Shown piece by piece: positions 5,879 through 11,453 of a stretch of 64,000 bases of DNA. This stretch comes from Chitinophagaceae bacterium DXS. GTDB lineage: Bacteria > Bacteroidota > Bacteroidia > Chitinophagales > Chitinophagaceae. Location: contig CP128386.1 of NCBI GenBank assembly GCA_030345135.1, positions 5,422,209 through 5,486,208 of the forward strand. The letters run 5' to 3'. Numbering within the stretch: position 1 is the first letter of the stretch; every line of letters starts with the position of its first letter. Both the position numbers and the translations under genes were made by a program. The notes below the pieces were generated by a model, which saw only the letters and a program-made list of their open reading frames with translations, did not search any database and was not told where the DNA came from.

Positions 5879-7021
5879 ACTTAATAAAATTACGATTAAG
5901 GCAAATCAATAATTGACCTGATGGCCTCATGAAAACAGACTCCTGCTTTAAGCAGAGCGTGGCTTTCCATTACATACACTATGTCTTTTTAAAGAGGGCA
6001 TTTTTGTATTCCCCGCTTTTTCTAGCAGGTGTCTGAGGAAATCGATCCCCAGTTGAATAGCATTGAAAGCCCTGCTGAATAAGCACTATAGATAGTGAAT
6101 TGAGTCCAGATTGTTTCATTCCCTCCCTTTCACCTTCTTGCCAGGTTTTCTGCTCTCCTCTCAATTAAGCCTGCCAATCTACGAGAATTATATGTAGACG
6201 TTTGTTGATTTTTTAACTTCAACATTATCAATGAAGTCTTCTACAAAACCTACATGCCCCTACAACTATTACAATATTACTCGTTAATAGCTGCCACAGA
6301 GCAATTGAAGATGGTAATGTTCGAAATACATAGCCGTGTTCTTTTTCTGTTTGTAAAATTTGAGAGAGCACATAACTGATGCATGTTCTTTACCTTAGAA
6401 AATTGTGAATGTTAATTGTAAAAGTTGGTATCGAAAAACGAGGTACAATTTTGATTGTAGATTTGAAATTGCTGTAAAGCGCGCAACTTTACATACTGAG
6501 CGTTTGGGGAGGAATAAAGAATGTTCAAACAAAGTCGCAAAGAACAAACAGCTTTAAAAGACAACAAGTCAAAGGATAAAAGTATTTATTGGATACACCC
6601 AAGCGTAATCAGCAAGGCCTCATCCGGCCATTGGATAACGGGCTAAAGTCGTCAACAAGCAATCATCAGCAGATTTAAAAAATACATTTCAAAAAATTTT
6701 TTTATCAAAAAACACTCAAAAATTTTTCATAATTGAAATTCAATAATTTTTACAAATAACCCCGAAACATCAATAAAATCAACCATTACAGCGCATCTAA
6801 TCATTTTTTTAAAAATAAATCTGAGATTTTTTTTTCACGCTATTGCTAATAAAAATGTTTCGCATTACTTTCACTAAAATTTTTCAACAATAAAACCTCA
6901 AGTAGTCCGTCACAAAGCAAATGACATAGTCCGTTACCAGTTTACCTAGTTTTATTTCCACTTTTAAAATCCTTTCTCCCACTGAAAAAACCCGCTATAC
7001 CACACGCACTGTTACTTAGTC

Positions 7022-7033
7022 TAGCGATAGCTA
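7022..7033 (+). promoter_or_regulatory. ops-like hairpin motif, copy 1 (TAGC-GATA-GCTA)
   Basis: A four-base-pair stem closes a GATA loop about 150 bases upstream of the upxY-like gene. The core GCGATAGC differs at one base from GCGGTAGC, the hairpin part of the E. coli ops element that recruits the NusG paralog RfaH. Two further copies lie after the upxY-like gene. Functional role is inference from similarity and position. Confidence 0.4.
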
Positions 7034-7061
7034 TATCTTAAAGCCAAAACTTTGAGATAAT

Positions 7062-7085
7062 GCACTCTCTGTGCCTTTAATTTTC
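7062..7085 (+). terminator. Weak attenuator-like hairpin in the upxY leader
   Basis: A GCAC/GTGC stem with a five-base TCTCT loop at 7062-7074 is followed by CTTTAATTTT. The stem is only four pairs and the T-run is interrupted, so it is weak as an intrinsic terminator. Its place between the first ops-like motif and the antiterminator gene is what makes it worth marking. Confidence 0.2.
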
Positions 7086-7180
7086 GCTTACATCAATGCA
7101 CGTCCCCGCCTGATGTAATTCTTTCCCAGAGAATACAGTAGCCGAGCTATAAACCATTATGAAAACTAACCGTATAACAA

Positions 7181-7690
7181 GTGAAAAAATTCCGCCCCAG
7201 TTGGTATGTGATCTATACCAGGCCACGCCATGAAAAAAAACTTGCGAGCGAGCTAACTGAAATGACCATCACTAGCTTCTTACCTACCATCAAAAGCCTC
7301 AGGACATGGAACGATAGAAAAAAATTTGTTGACTCGCCACTGTTCCCGTCTTACATTTTTGTATATCTGAAAACTGCGCAGGAATACTTTACCTGTTTGG
7401 GCCATGATAGTGTCCTCTTCTTTATAAAGCAAGGTAAAGATATTTGCCAGGTGCCTCAATCAATCATCGACGATATTAAGCTGATCGTTGCAAACGGAAA
7501 AAATATTGAGGTTTGCGAGGATAAACTTTCTCCGGGAAAACGTCTCATAATAACAGAAGGTCCATTCACAGGCTTCTCCTGTGAAATAATTGAATATAAA
7601 GGCAGACAGAGAATATGGGTGCGAATTGATTTGCTTAAGCGAAACATATTACTGGATCTGCCAATTGATTACCTGGCTCAAACCGGGTAA
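7181..7690 (+). CDS. UpxY-type NusG paralog, transcription antiterminator of the polysaccharide locus
   Basis: A 169-residue protein with an N-terminal NGN domain (SWYVIYTRPRHEKKLASEL, then LFPSYIFVY) and a C-terminal KOW domain (SPGKRLIITEGPFTGFSCEI). This is the architecture and size of the Bacteroides UpxY proteins, which load onto RNA polymerase in the leader of a capsule locus and prevent premature termination. The start is GTG at 7181: an in-frame stop at 7175-7177 excludes anything upstream, and translation from GTG leads straight into the NGN core. It is the first gene of the long plus-strand locus, is followed by two copies of a small hairpin motif, and has an ATG-initiated 24-codon frame overlapping its start in another frame (7159-7233). 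Role is assigned by family and position. Confidence 0.88.
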   Translation: MKKFRPSWYVIYTRPRHEKKLASELTEMTITSFLPTIKSLRTWNDRKKFVDSPLFPSYIFVYLKTAQEYFTCLGHDSVLFFIKQGKDICQVPQSIIDDIKLIVANGKNIEVCEDKLSPGKRLIITEGPFTGFSCEIIEYKGRQRIWVRIDLLKRNILLDLPIDYLAQTG

Positions 7691-7716
7691 TTAATAACAA
7701 AATTGTGACTGACACG

Positions 7717-7730
7717 TAGCGATAGCTTTG
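7717..7730 (+). promoter_or_regulatory. ops-like hairpin motif, copy 2
   Basis: AGC-GATA-GCT followed by TTG lies 27 bases after the upxY-like stop codon. The 13-mer AGCGATAGCTTTG is repeated exactly at 7753-7765. Its core resembles the E. coli RfaH recruitment hairpin (GC-GGTA-GC). It sits in the 106-base gap before the exporter gene, where an antiterminator would be expected to load or pause. Confidence 0.45.
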
Positions 7731-7751
7731 TCCGAAAGGCAAGCCACGCTT

Positions 7752-7765
7752 AAGCGATAGCTTTG
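7752..7765 (+). promoter_or_regulatory. ops-like hairpin motif, copy 3 (AAGC-GATA-GCTT)
   Basis: Third copy, 35 bases downstream of copy 2 and sharing the 13-mer AGCGATAGCTTTG with it. The outer pair of the stem is A-T here and T-A in copy 1, a small compensatory change that hints at selection for the hairpin. It lies 31 bases before the exporter gene. Confidence 0.45.
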
Positions 7766-7796
7766 CAATTCCGTCCCCACACCACAACCTTAACTT

Positions 7797-8552
7797 ATGT
7801 TAAAAACATCTTGCACCTATGCATTCTTACTTATTATAATTCTACTTACAGCCTCATGTGCCAACTCAAAAAAAGTTGTGTACTTCAATAACCTAACAGA
7901 TTCGATGGTAGTCTCTCAGACCGGTAGCCTTGAACCCGTTATTCAACGAAACGACGTACTAAGTATTTATGTCACGAGTATGGATGAGACTGTGACGCAA
8001 ATGTTCAATGCCCCAAATTTATCTGCATCACAAGCTGCGGGATATTTGGTTGATCAGGACAGCACCATTCAATTTCCAATAATTGGCAAGATCAAAGCGG
8101 CAGGCATGACTAAGAAAGCGCTTGCGGATTATATTAGAAGCCAGCTTATAAAAAAGGATCTACTTAAAGATCCAATAGTACAAGTTCGATACCTGAACTT
8201 TAAAGTTGTTGTACTGGGAGAAGTTGCTCACCCTGGTGTGATAAATGTAACCAATGAAAAAATAACATTGATGGAAGCAATCGCTTCTGCCGGAGATTTA
8301 ACACCTCAGGCAAAAAGAAGTAACATTCTTTTAGTACATGAGGAAGATGGAACCAAAACGATTAAAAGGCTTGACTTAACAAAAGCCGAATTATTAACAT
8401 CACCGTCATATTACCTCAAGTCGAATGATGTAGTATACATTGAGCCAACCAAGACAAAAATGGCGGGAAGCAGCAGATTCCTCCAGCTTTTCCCGATAGT
8501 ACTTGCCACGCTCACATTTGGCTTATTGGTCATTAACCAATTCGAAAACTAA
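7797..8552 (+). CDS. Wza-like polysaccharide export outer-membrane lipoprotein
   Basis: The 251-residue protein has a lipoprotein signal peptide with lipobox TASC (Cys21). A Poly_export domain follows (about 45-130, with RNDVLSIYVTSMDE and DSTIQFPIIGKI), then an SLBB-type domain (VVVLGEVAHPGVINVTNEKITLMEAIASAGDLTP). A C-terminal hydrophobic helix (about 228-247) ends in NQFEN. This is the short, C-terminally membrane-anchored form common in Bacteroidota. It should form the outer-membrane pore through which the polymer leaves, partnered by the Wzc-like kinase encoded eight bases downstream. Confidence 0.93.
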   Translation: MLKTSCTYAFLLIIILLTASCANSKKVVYFNNLTDSMVVSQTGSLEPVIQRNDVLSIYVTSMDETVTQMFNAPNLSASQAAGYLVDQDSTIQFPIIGKIKAAGMTKKALADYIRSQLIKKDLLKDPIVQVRYLNFKVVVLGEVAHPGVINVTNEKITLMEAIASAGDLTPQAKRSNILLVHEEDGTKTIKRLDLTKAELLTSPSYYLKSNDVVYIEPTKTKMAGSSRFLQLFPIVLATLTFGLLVINQFEN

Positions 8553-8560
8553 TCAGCGGT

Positions 8561-10855
8561 ATGAAAACAAGCAACGCATTCAATCAGCTCACGTACCGGT
8601 ACCTGCCCTACTGGACCTTGTTCTTGTTGTTAGTTGTGGCATGCTGCCTTGCCGCACGCTATTACATAAGATTTATAACCCCTCTGTATGAGTCAACGGC
8701 AACAATACTTATCAAAGATGAAACGCAGGAATCCGCAGATGTTAAAATGATGGAAGCGCTGAATATGTTGCCCTTCAAAAAGAATGTAGAGAATGAACTT
8801 CAGATCATTCAGTCACGAACAATCATGAGAAGGGTAATTGAACAACTGGGTCTCTATGCAGAAATATTTGAAGAGGGAGAAGTACAGCCAGTTCCGGCAT
8901 ACACATCATCACCAATAAGCATCAAAGCAAAATATCCCGAAAGACTGGCTGAATACCACAACATCCCGTTCAGGTTTGACAGTGCAAAAAATATTGTCAT
9001 CATTGGCAATGCAGATTATCCTATTGATACATGGACCCAAACAAAATACGGTGAGCTGATGTTCATAAAAAACATTCATCTTGTATCTGCTGCCACTAAG
9101 CCGTTATTTTTTTCTATTACACATCCGGCCAATGTGACAAAGGCCTTGCTTGCAAACCTGAATGTATTCCCTGTTAACAGAAACTCATCAGTAGTAGTCT
9201 TAAAATTCAAAGATCATGTCCCTAAAAAGGGCGAAGACATTTTAAATGCACTTTGCAAGGAATATTATCAGACATCCATCAATAGCAAAAACGCCCAGAC
9301 ATCTTCAACAATGACTTTCGTTGAGGATCGTATCAAGTATGTAGAAGATGATCTCGACTCGCTTGAAAAGAAAATTGAACACTACAAGGCGGAGAAAGGA
9401 ATAACTGATCTTAGTGCTCAAGGCCAATATTTCCTTGAAAATGTTGGAACCAATGATAAAAAAATGGCCGAAATAAAAATACAGCTGGCGGTTTTGGATG
9501 AAGTCGAAAAATATGTAGATTCAAAAAAAGATAAGGCAGGAATTGTCCCGTCAACACTCGGCATAAGTGACCCCTTGTTAAATCAGCTACTACAAAAATT
9601 GTACGACGCTGAGATAAGCTATGACAAGCTAAGTAAAATAACAGCCCCCAATAATCCATCATTGCTTGCAATTAAGAGCGAACAAGAAAAAATACGGCCA
9701 AGCATACTAGAAGTCATTGGAAATCTTCGGACGAGCCTAACGACAAGTCTGCAAAACATAAACAAATCGAGAGATCAATATGCTTCACTGTTAAGTACTA
9801 TTCCTCAGAAAGAAAAAGATCTGCTGGACTTCAGCAGACAGCAGGCAATCAAAAGCAGTGTATATACTTTTCTGCTTCAAAAACGCGAAGAAACTGCACT
9901 TTCCAATTCAACAACAGTTGCAGACAGCGAGATTATTGATGCAGCAGAATCATCCATGATACCAAACAGTCCGAATAAGTCTATCATATACCTTATGGCA
10001 CTGGGAATGGGCGTACTGCTGGGCATTGGCATTATTACAATACGCGAAATGCTGAATGCAAAAATATTGTTCAGGCATGAAATAGAATCGTACACAAGCG
10101 CCCCTGTAATAGCTGAACTTACACAGGCCAAGACGCAAACGCCGCTTGCTGTGGATGATCCAAAACAGGTTTTTATCTCAGAACAATTCAGACAATTAAG
10201 AACTTCACTCGGCTTGTATGGAGAGCATCGTTATAACCGGAAAATGCTGGTCTCATCCAGCATTAGCGGTGAAGGAAAAAGCTTCGTAAGCAGCAATCTT
10301 GCAGTTAGCATCGCATTATCGGGAAAGAAAATTGTGCTGCTTGATCTTGACCTTCGTAAACGCAGAACATCCGAAATTTTCAATTTACCAAATGAAAACG
10401 GCGTAATTGAATTCCTGGAAAACAGCAAAAATCCCGAAGAGATTATTCAAAAAACTGCATATAAAAACTTATTCGTGATACCTGCAGGCATTAGCGAGAA
10501 TCCGGCTTCAGACCTGCTTTTGAACGGAAATCTTGCTGCGCTTATAAAGTTTCTCGAAAACAAATTTGATTACATCCTCCTGGATGGCCCCCCAATAGAT
10601 CCGGTGGCAGACACTTGCATTCTTGGAGAATTTTGCGATATAACACTTTTCGTTGTAAGGCATGGCGTAACCCCCAAAAGTATGATACAGCTTCTGGACA
10701 CAAACACCAAAATAAAATCCTTTAAAAATCTTTCTATCATTTTCAACGGCATTAAGCCAAGAGGCTTTATGATCGGCAAAGGATATGGCTTCGGTTACGG
10801 ATATGGATTTGAAAATGTGTACAAAAACTACAGATACAAAGTAAGACGCGCTTAA
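8561..10855 (+). CDS. Wzc-like chain-length determinant fused to BY-kinase (polysaccharide copolymerase)
   Basis: 764 residues. A Wzz-type region is bounded by membrane helices at about 16-40 and 473-494, with a coiled-coil-rich periplasmic part between (GNVR-type PNNPSLLAI near 365). The cytoplasmic C-terminal domain has Walker A (SISGEGKS, about 567-574), Walker A' (VLLDLDLRKRR, about 592) and Walker B (YILLDGPP, about 670). The tail is tyrosine-rich (GYGFGYGYGF, then YKNYRY), the usual autophosphorylation cluster. Family knowledge: it controls polymer length and couples Wzy polymerisation to export through the Wza-like pore. No separate Wzb-type phosphatase is seen nearby. Confidence 0.94.
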   Translation: MKTSNAFNQLTYRYLPYWTLFLLLVVACCLAARYYIRFITPLYESTATILIKDETQESADVKMMEALNMLPFKKNVENELQIIQSRTIMRRVIEQLGLYAEIFEEGEVQPVPAYTSSPISIKAKYPERLAEYHNIPFRFDSAKNIVIIGNADYPIDTWTQTKYGELMFIKNIHLVSAATKPLFFSITHPANVTKALLANLNVFPVNRNSSVVVLKFKDHVPKKGEDILNALCKEYYQTSINSKNAQTSSTMTFVEDRIKYVEDDLDSLEKKIEHYKAEKGITDLSAQGQYFLENVGTNDKKMAEIKIQLAVLDEVEKYVDSKKDKAGIVPSTLGISDPLLNQLLQKLYDAEISYDKLSKITAPNNPSLLAIKSEQEKIRPSILEVIGNLRTSLTTSLQNINKSRDQYASLLSTIPQKEKDLLDFSRQQAIKSSVYTFLLQKREETALSNSTTVADSEIIDAAESSMIPNSPNKSIIYLMALGMGVLLGIGIITIREMLNAKILFRHEIESYTSAPVIAELTQAKTQTPLAVDDPKQVFISEQFRQLRTSLGLYGEHRYNRKMLVSSSISGEGKSFVSSNLAVSIALSGKKIVLLDLDLRKRRTSEIFNLPNENGVIEFLENSKNPEEIIQKTAYKNLFVIPAGISENPASDLLLNGNLAALIKFLENKFDYILLDGPPIDPVADTCILGEFCDITLFVVRHGVTPKSMIQLLDTNTKIKSFKNLSIIFNGIKPRGFMIGKGYGFGYGYGFENVYKNYRYKVRRA

Positions 10856-10910: not shown

Positions 10911-11453
10911 ATGGAACAAAAATGGTATGCTGTATATACAAAGCCAGGAAATGAAAAAAAAGTGTGTTCTGTATTATCAAAAAAAAATATTGAGCACTAT
11001 TACCCTGTCAACAAAGTTGGCGGCCACAACAATTCGCTGCGCAATACAACTTGCGAGCCACTGTTCCCCTGTTTTGTATTTGTTAAGACAACTGAACAAC
11101 AGCACATTTTTCTGCAACAAATAACCGGCGTCATCAACATGGTCTATTGGAAAAACGCACCCGCGGTATTCCCTGATGAAGAAATTAACTGCCTGGCAGA
11201 CTTCATTAGCAACCATCAAAATATCAGCACAAAACAAATTGCAGTAAATCAGACAAACAGCATTAAACCCAAACGGGTAATCTATCCTGTACATACAGAA
11301 CAAACCGAGCAGCCAGTTAAGCTGATTGTAGAAGTCACGCTTCCATCCATTGGATATTCACTAAGCGCTGAATTGCGCAATTCAGAAGTTGAAACAACCG
11401 GCGTTTCAAATGTTTTCCCCTTTGAAACATTTTCCAATAAATATGCTGTTTAA
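10911..11453 (+). CDS. Second NusG/UpxY-like protein, NGN domain only (KOW not recognisable)
   Basis: A 180-residue protein. Its first half is a clear NGN domain (KWYAVYTKPGNEKKVCSVLSK, then PLFPCFVFV), related to the first gene of the locus. The second half lacks the KOW signature: where GxxVxVxxGPFxGxxG is expected, the sequence reads IKPKRVIYPVHTEQTEQPVKL and runs to the end with no match. It lies between the Wzc-like gene and the first glycosyltransferase. It could be an antiterminator that no longer contacts the ribosome or NusE, or a competitor that modulates the first paralog. The NGN assignment is firm; the loss of KOW is my reading by eye. Confidence 0.8.
   Translation: MEQKWYAVYTKPGNEKKVCSVLSKKNIEHYYPVNKVGGHNNSLRNTTCEPLFPCFVFVKTTEQQHIFLQQITGVINMVYWKNAPAVFPDEEINCLADFISNHQNISTKQIAVNQTNSIKPKRVIYPVHTEQTEQPVKLIVEVTLPSIGYSLSAELRNSEVETTGVSNVFPFETFSNKYAV

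Follow-up and report, generated by a model that had tools for sequence, protein, structure and literature searches.

Three short hairpin repeats located around an upxY gene in the genome of Chitinophagaceae bacterium DXS are real and are part of a Bacteroidota-wide signal. With a probability that we place at about 0.8, these repeats are a signal that, when transcribed, recruits UpxY-type NusG paralogues, in the way that ops/JUMPStart acts for RfaH. The binding of UpxY, the pausing of RNA polymerase, the action of the element as DNA rather than as RNA, and antitermination are the parts of this reading that we infer.

Results

In the window, that is, the whole 64,000-nt stretch of DNA that was analysed, the 10-mer AGCGATAGCT is present on the + strand at positions 7023-7032, 7718-7727 and 7753-7762, with no further copy, as stated in the preliminary description. 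Shuffled sequences give an expectation of 0.08 copies, and none of 100 shuffles contained three. At the density of this 10-mer in the genome itself, about 0.0014 copies are expected per 750 bp, and the probability of at least three is about 5e-10. The 8-mer GCGATAGC has three copies on the window's - strand as well, distant from the upxY locus. The extension of copies 2 and 3 to a common 13-mer was found as described (AGCGATAGCTTTG). The core is present in all three copies, but copy 3 (7753..7762, +) consists of the mini-hairpin core and lacks the upstream half of the element. Copy 1 is of full length (7007..7040, +; CACTGTTACTTAGTCTAGCGATAGCTATATCTTA; core 7023-7032), as is copy 2, which carries one inserted base (7701..7735, +; AATTGTGACTGACACGTAGCGATAGCTTTGTCCGA; core 7718-7727). 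The copies had been said to flank the first UpxY gene. Copy 1, placed 158 nt before the GTG start at 7181, is the sole copy upstream of upxY, and copies 2 and 3 are both downstream of it, before the export gene.

The upxY gene (7181..7690, +) encodes a NusG paralogue composed of an NGN and a KOW-type C-terminal domain, as determined by Pfam (NusG, 1.6e-16), profile, AlphaFold and Foldseek comparisons. It is followed by a polysaccharide export gene of the Poly_export/SLBB type (7797..8552, +), which is the first gene after copies 2 and 3, and by a gene for a Wzz/GNVR chain-length determinant with a tyrosine-kinase-like AAA domain (8561..10855, +), both assigned by Pfam. A second NusG paralogue (10911..11453, +; Pfam NusG, 4.6e-15) is placed within the operon, and scanning of the locus revealed no recognisable element beside it. 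The product of the first gene belongs to the UpxY family, as it has a NusG N-terminal domain and its gene heads a polysaccharide operon with Poly_export and Wzz genes (Pfam). When the UpxY family profile was compared with solved structures, RfaH was the best match (1.5e-20), and E. coli NusG reached 3e-9. The AlphaFold model of the upxY product (mean pLDDT 78) contains the NGN fold, which Foldseek places near RfaH in the ops-paused complex 8pen, with a TM score of 0.86 by the target's length; the C-terminal domain is modelled as beta at low confidence (pLDDT about 60-70). Folding of the leader as RNA gave a 10-bp hairpin, TATCTTAAAG-CCAAAA-CTTTGAGATA, directly 3' of copy 1 (7034..7059, +), and an inverted repeat, TTACATCA...TGATGTAA, followed by TTCTTTCCC (7088..7118, +). 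The latter is possibly a weak terminator or pause hairpin, which is offered only as a suggestion because the terminator scan of the leader gave none. A convincing promoter was also not found in the leader, and the Bacteroidota promoter consensus, sought upstream of copy 1, had poor matches only.

The repeats are retained beside upxY in related bacteria. UpxY orthologues of other Chitinophagaceae (40-52% identity) carry TAGCGATAGCT about 50-110 nt upstream in the same orientation. The scanning of named genomes with a six-member alignment yielded 80 loci, and in Chitinophaga, Niastella, Pedobacter and Mucilaginibacter most loci have the motif or a loop variant of it 30-500 nt upstream. Among the AGCNNNNGCT sites in the leaders of relatives, the loop is GATA in 34 cases, GGTA in six and GACA in five, the others being single. 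At a threshold of at least 12 bits and with the training loci included, the element was detected in sense orientation beside upxY in 128 of 222 loci versus 7 in antisense, and the remaining 94 loci (about 40%) lack it at this threshold. The position is upstream of upxY in 104 of the 128 positive loci and not more than 160 nt after the upxY stop in the other 24. Moreover, 72 UpxY loci outside training were scored by a matrix built from the earlier loci, and the 14-bit cut-off was passed by 26 sense, one antisense and no shuffled sequences. The enrichment in homologous leaders is thus strong and strand-specific. Several Chitinophaga loci head NRPS or PKS genes. At L050 and L051, the element precedes upxY by about 590 nt, and a helix-turn-helix-like protein is encoded between the two. 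Two loci before NRPS-type genes, L098 and L100, contain four tandem elements about 60 bp apart, at -300 to -119 of upxY, and an outer GGGAC...GTCCC stem, which was noticed by eye only.

The alignment of sites replaced the earlier view of the element as a mini-hairpin alone with a longer, two-part element of about 34 nt, in which TG[T/G]NAC is followed, after 6-7 nt, by [A/G]GC-G-N(1-2)-A-GC[T/C]NT. Tetraloop sites have 7 nt between the blocks, and triloop sites have 6 or 7 nt, apart from two with 8. The compensatory outer pair proposed before (T-A or A-T) is not borne out by comparison. In relatives, its first position is T in 90% of sites, and the partner is A in 45%, T in 26%, G in 16% and C in 13%; in copy 2, T stands opposite T. 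Covariation is absent across 62 sites, and this fourth, outermost pair was rejected as covariation evidence. The next pair inward, which closes the hairpin, covaries in triloop relatives (GC 17, AU 14, GU 2, other 1). The hairpin is therefore supported at the closing pair, where A-T and G-C replace each other in compensation, and the two inner pairs, being invariant, are uninformative on pairing. In most relatives, a variable hairpin immediately precedes the core, and its loop contains or adjoins the TG[T/G]NAC block. The 26 nt upstream of the core fold more stably than shuffles (z -12.3; mean -4.2 vs -2.0 kcal/mol; 88 sites). Of the window copies, copy 1 has a weak form of this upstream hairpin, and copies 2 and 3 have none.

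These structural features bear on the question of whether the element is read as RNA, with UpxY or another factor binding the nascent hairpins. The precedent for such a mode is LoaP, which reads an RNA UNCG hairpin (PMC12691694). The stability of the upstream hairpin in most relatives would agree with it, as would the tolerance of G-T closing pairs (12 of 53 triloop cores), which fit RNA at least as well as DNA. However, the window copies and L098/L100 have the upstream hairpin only weakly or not at all and yet keep the core loop and the block spacing, and the closest solved relatives of UpxY are RfaH proteins, which read a DNA hairpin. GNA and GNNA loops in GC stems form very stable DNA mini-hairpins. 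Reading as RNA is therefore regarded as unlikely, and we prefer a signal recognised as DNA.

The element exists in two loop classes. In the clade of the window gene, the loop is a GNNA tetraloop (GATA, in some cases GGTA), and in other clades it is a GNA triloop (GCGAAGC). In a more distant set of 29 loci (Tenacibaculum, Kordia, Aquimarina and others), no 8-mers were more frequent than GCGAAGCT and AGCGAAGC, which represent the element with a three-base loop, TGTGACT-N6-AGCGAAGCTTTG; in these 29 leaders, GCGNAGC was counted 25 times in sense and never in antisense. Mapped on the UpxY tree, the loop type changes twice, as compared with a mean of 40 and a minimum of 33 changes after shuffling. 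Leaders are inherited together with their genes, and clade-matched loops therefore show shared inheritance and are only consistent with matched specificity.

In the whole 7,287,640-base genome, AGCGATAGCT has 17 copies, and the reversed control pattern has four. Thirteen of the 17 are inside open reading frames. The fourth intergenic copy, at C1:3062914-3062923 (-), is followed after about 100 nt by a second UpxY gene, C1:3062533-3062808 (-), which is one of the five NusG-domain genes found in the genome. Since the three window copies and this one are all beside UpxY-type genes, every intergenic AGCGATAGCT adjoins such a gene. The same was obtained with R1, a model of 39 tetraloop sites that includes none from the window genome. 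Its three best matches genome-wide are copy 1 (38.2 bits), copy 2 (29.0 bits) and the site at the second UpxY gene (27.4 bits), after which the score falls to 17.8. The genic copies of AGCGATAGCT lack the rest of the element and are not among the R1 matches of the genome. Copy 3, to which R1 aligns over positions 17-30 only (13.4 bits), was not recovered by the genome-wide search. The motif is thus not an evenly spread common repeat, and this distribution, along with the enrichment in leaders, supports the recruitment sites suggested in the preliminary description, at which UpxY would bind the non-template strand. The second UpxY gene (locus L058, G000:C1:3050000-3066500) heads a contractile tail-sheath, injection-system-like gene cluster, and sheath-type neighbours were also observed in eight other tetraloop loci.

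Elements are also found away from upxY. A triloop model, R2, was built from 34 sites, all beside UpxY genes, and searched against 147 Chitinophagaceae genomes at E <= 0.02. It gave 120 matches, of which 43 are no more than 700 bp away from a listed upxY, as compared with an expectation of 0.05. Forty of the remaining matches were inspected in two batches, with gene classes assigned partly by Pfam and partly by reading. In one batch, 15 of 20 sites head polysaccharide genes, which are export genes in ten cases and glycosyltransferase, transporter, flippase or sugar-modification genes in the other five; one further site heads a NusG paralogue that the list does not contain, and the last four are found beside genes that are integrase-like or could be given no class. 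Pfam searches with 160-residue pieces confirmed Poly_export in nine of the ten export genes, and the tenth, which encodes a large protein, had no Pfam match in its first 160 residues. The other batch was more mixed. Besides two NusG paralogues (L305 and L319) and several operons for polysaccharides, it comprised several genes of unrelated kinds, among them those at most sites of one 3.0-Mb genome, G145. This genome has seven good R2 matches (loci include L311, L313, L314 and L324), several of them at non-polysaccharide genes. All 70 R2-positive genomes possess UpxY and none of the 26 UpxY-less genomes is positive (P = 4e-9). In another genome, G113, an export/Wzz operon is closely preceded by an R1 site with a GGTA loop, and the 10 kb read there contain no upxY. 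On the basis of sequence, the R1 and R2 sites remote from upxY are candidate targets in trans. The R1 match at G122:C1:802380, antisense in a predicted ORF, was treated as chance. At L327, a phage-integrase SAM-like domain is encoded by the gene that follows the element after 40 nt, and L329, in another genome, heads a similar-looking gene; such sites possibly reflect a mobile or integron-like use of the element.

The above results allow two further explanations to be weighed. The element might be an ordinary double-stranded operator or promoter part, bound by an unrelated transcription factor of polysaccharide genes, and its shortness, conservation and closeness to gene starts are what such a site would exhibit. 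Its single orientation relative to the operon, its location past the upxY stop in 24 loci, its absence from UpxY-less genomes and the agreement of loop type with UpxY clade speak against an operator, which is accordingly considered improbable. The repeats could also be a dispersed sequence or a chance cluster devoid of any regulatory role, for which the genic copies in the window genome and the sites of G145 at non-polysaccharide genes might be cited. This is scarcely credible in view of the absence of the remaining element from the genic copies, the conservation across families, the strand bias and the functional linkage of matches that had not been selected for it. For the window, a simple dispersed repeat is refuted by the R1 ranking in the genome, by the held-out loci (26 vs 1) and by the orientation beside upxY (128 vs 7).

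Discussion

In the preferred reading, recruitment of UpxY during transcription, the GC-GATA-GC sequence in the exposed non-template strand would form a mini-hairpin with a G-A closing pair and contribute to the pausing of RNA polymerase. The NGN domain of UpxY would then recognise both this mini-hairpin and, about 10 nt before it, the TG[T/G]NAC block, whose place would be in the upstream duplex or at the fork. UpxY may remain on the polymerase afterwards and see it through the long operon. Loading of UpxY ahead of upxY itself would fall to copy 1, and loading or reloading ahead of the export gene would fall to copy 2 and perhaps also to copy 3, the degenerate one.

In broader terms, we lean slightly towards the view that the element is a phylum-wide counterpart of the RfaH-JUMPStart system. 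This would be a two-part, strand-specific signal, with triloop and tetraloop forms matched to UpxY clades, which also marks operons devoid of upxY, so that UpxY would have polysaccharide, contractile-injection and NRPS/PKS operons as its targets in trans. The element provides a sequence-level definition of where UpxY probably boards RNA polymerase, and it can be used in any genome of the Bacteroidota for the prediction of UpxY targets, also where an operon has no upxY itself. Moreover, the way in which NusG paralogues distinguish operons becomes directly testable, because two natural loop classes track the protein clade.

Recruitment of UpxY by DNA is not without precedent. The preliminary description was aware of no defined DNA recruitment hairpin for UpxY proteins. 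Saba et al. 2024 reportedly already describes DNA-guided recruitment in Bacteroides, where UpxY is said to recognise the paused polymerase via the non-template strand and the upstream duplex, with nascent RNA hairpins as an aid. The protein family is the same in both cases; the present work differs in being a comparative genomic study of Chitinophagales, Sphingobacteriales, Flavobacteriia and Bacteroidia at large, and in the two loop classes and the sites at upxY-less operons. PMC12691694 cites Saba et al. 2024 for UpxY contacts with the upstream duplex. Antitermination by UpxY of its own operon is known for B. fragilis (PMC7819879).

LoaP of the Bacillota is likewise a NusG paralogue, and its cis element also resides in a long operon's leader; some of the relatives considered here head NRPS/PKS genes, as in that system. 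In contrast to LoaP, the core described here is GNNA or GNA, and the window copies have not retained the upstream hairpin. In other bacteria, long operons of the types described above are under the control of RfaH, LoaP and paralogues related to them (PMC6391919, PMC7819879, PMC12691694).

The closest likeness is to ops/JUMPStart and RfaH. E. coli ops comprises 12 nt and forms a non-template hairpin with a two-base loop (PMC11001881). The JUMPStart sequence was found in 5375 of 5426 E. coli genomes; in strain C, it is flanked by galF and rfbB. RF01707 aligns the E. coli JUMPStart as a stem-loop followed by GGGCGGUAGCGUG, with a control score of 61.1 bits. At its gathering score, RF01707 has no match in window positions 6900-7850 and in 12 related loci, and in Rfam nothing meaningful was matched. 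R1 recognises the core only of E. coli JUMPStart (3.8 bits); on this score, direct homology beyond the core was rejected, and the likeness is therefore one of layout and core, not of overall sequence. The Bacteroidota element belongs to another phylum, has a GATA loop or a GNA triloop and is mostly spaced by 7 nt. Its factor, unlike RfaH, is usually encoded in the target operon. For the C-terminal domain, which in RfaH is alpha-helical and autoinhibited, the model of UpxY suggests beta structure at low confidence. The parallel with ops drawn earlier is good, since the GC-GNNA-GC core matches, GC-G-N-T-A-GC is shared, and some relatives have the exact ops loop, GGTA, and the exact ops core, GCGGTAGC. 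The order of parts is also the same, with a TGTTA-containing hairpin loop upstream, 6 nt and the core in JUMPStart. Both elements reside in the leaders of polysaccharide operons, and the predicted partner in Bacteroidota is a NusG paralogue closest to RfaH. The core and the layout are thus close to those of the gamma-proteobacterial ops/JUMPStart, by convergence or by very old descent.
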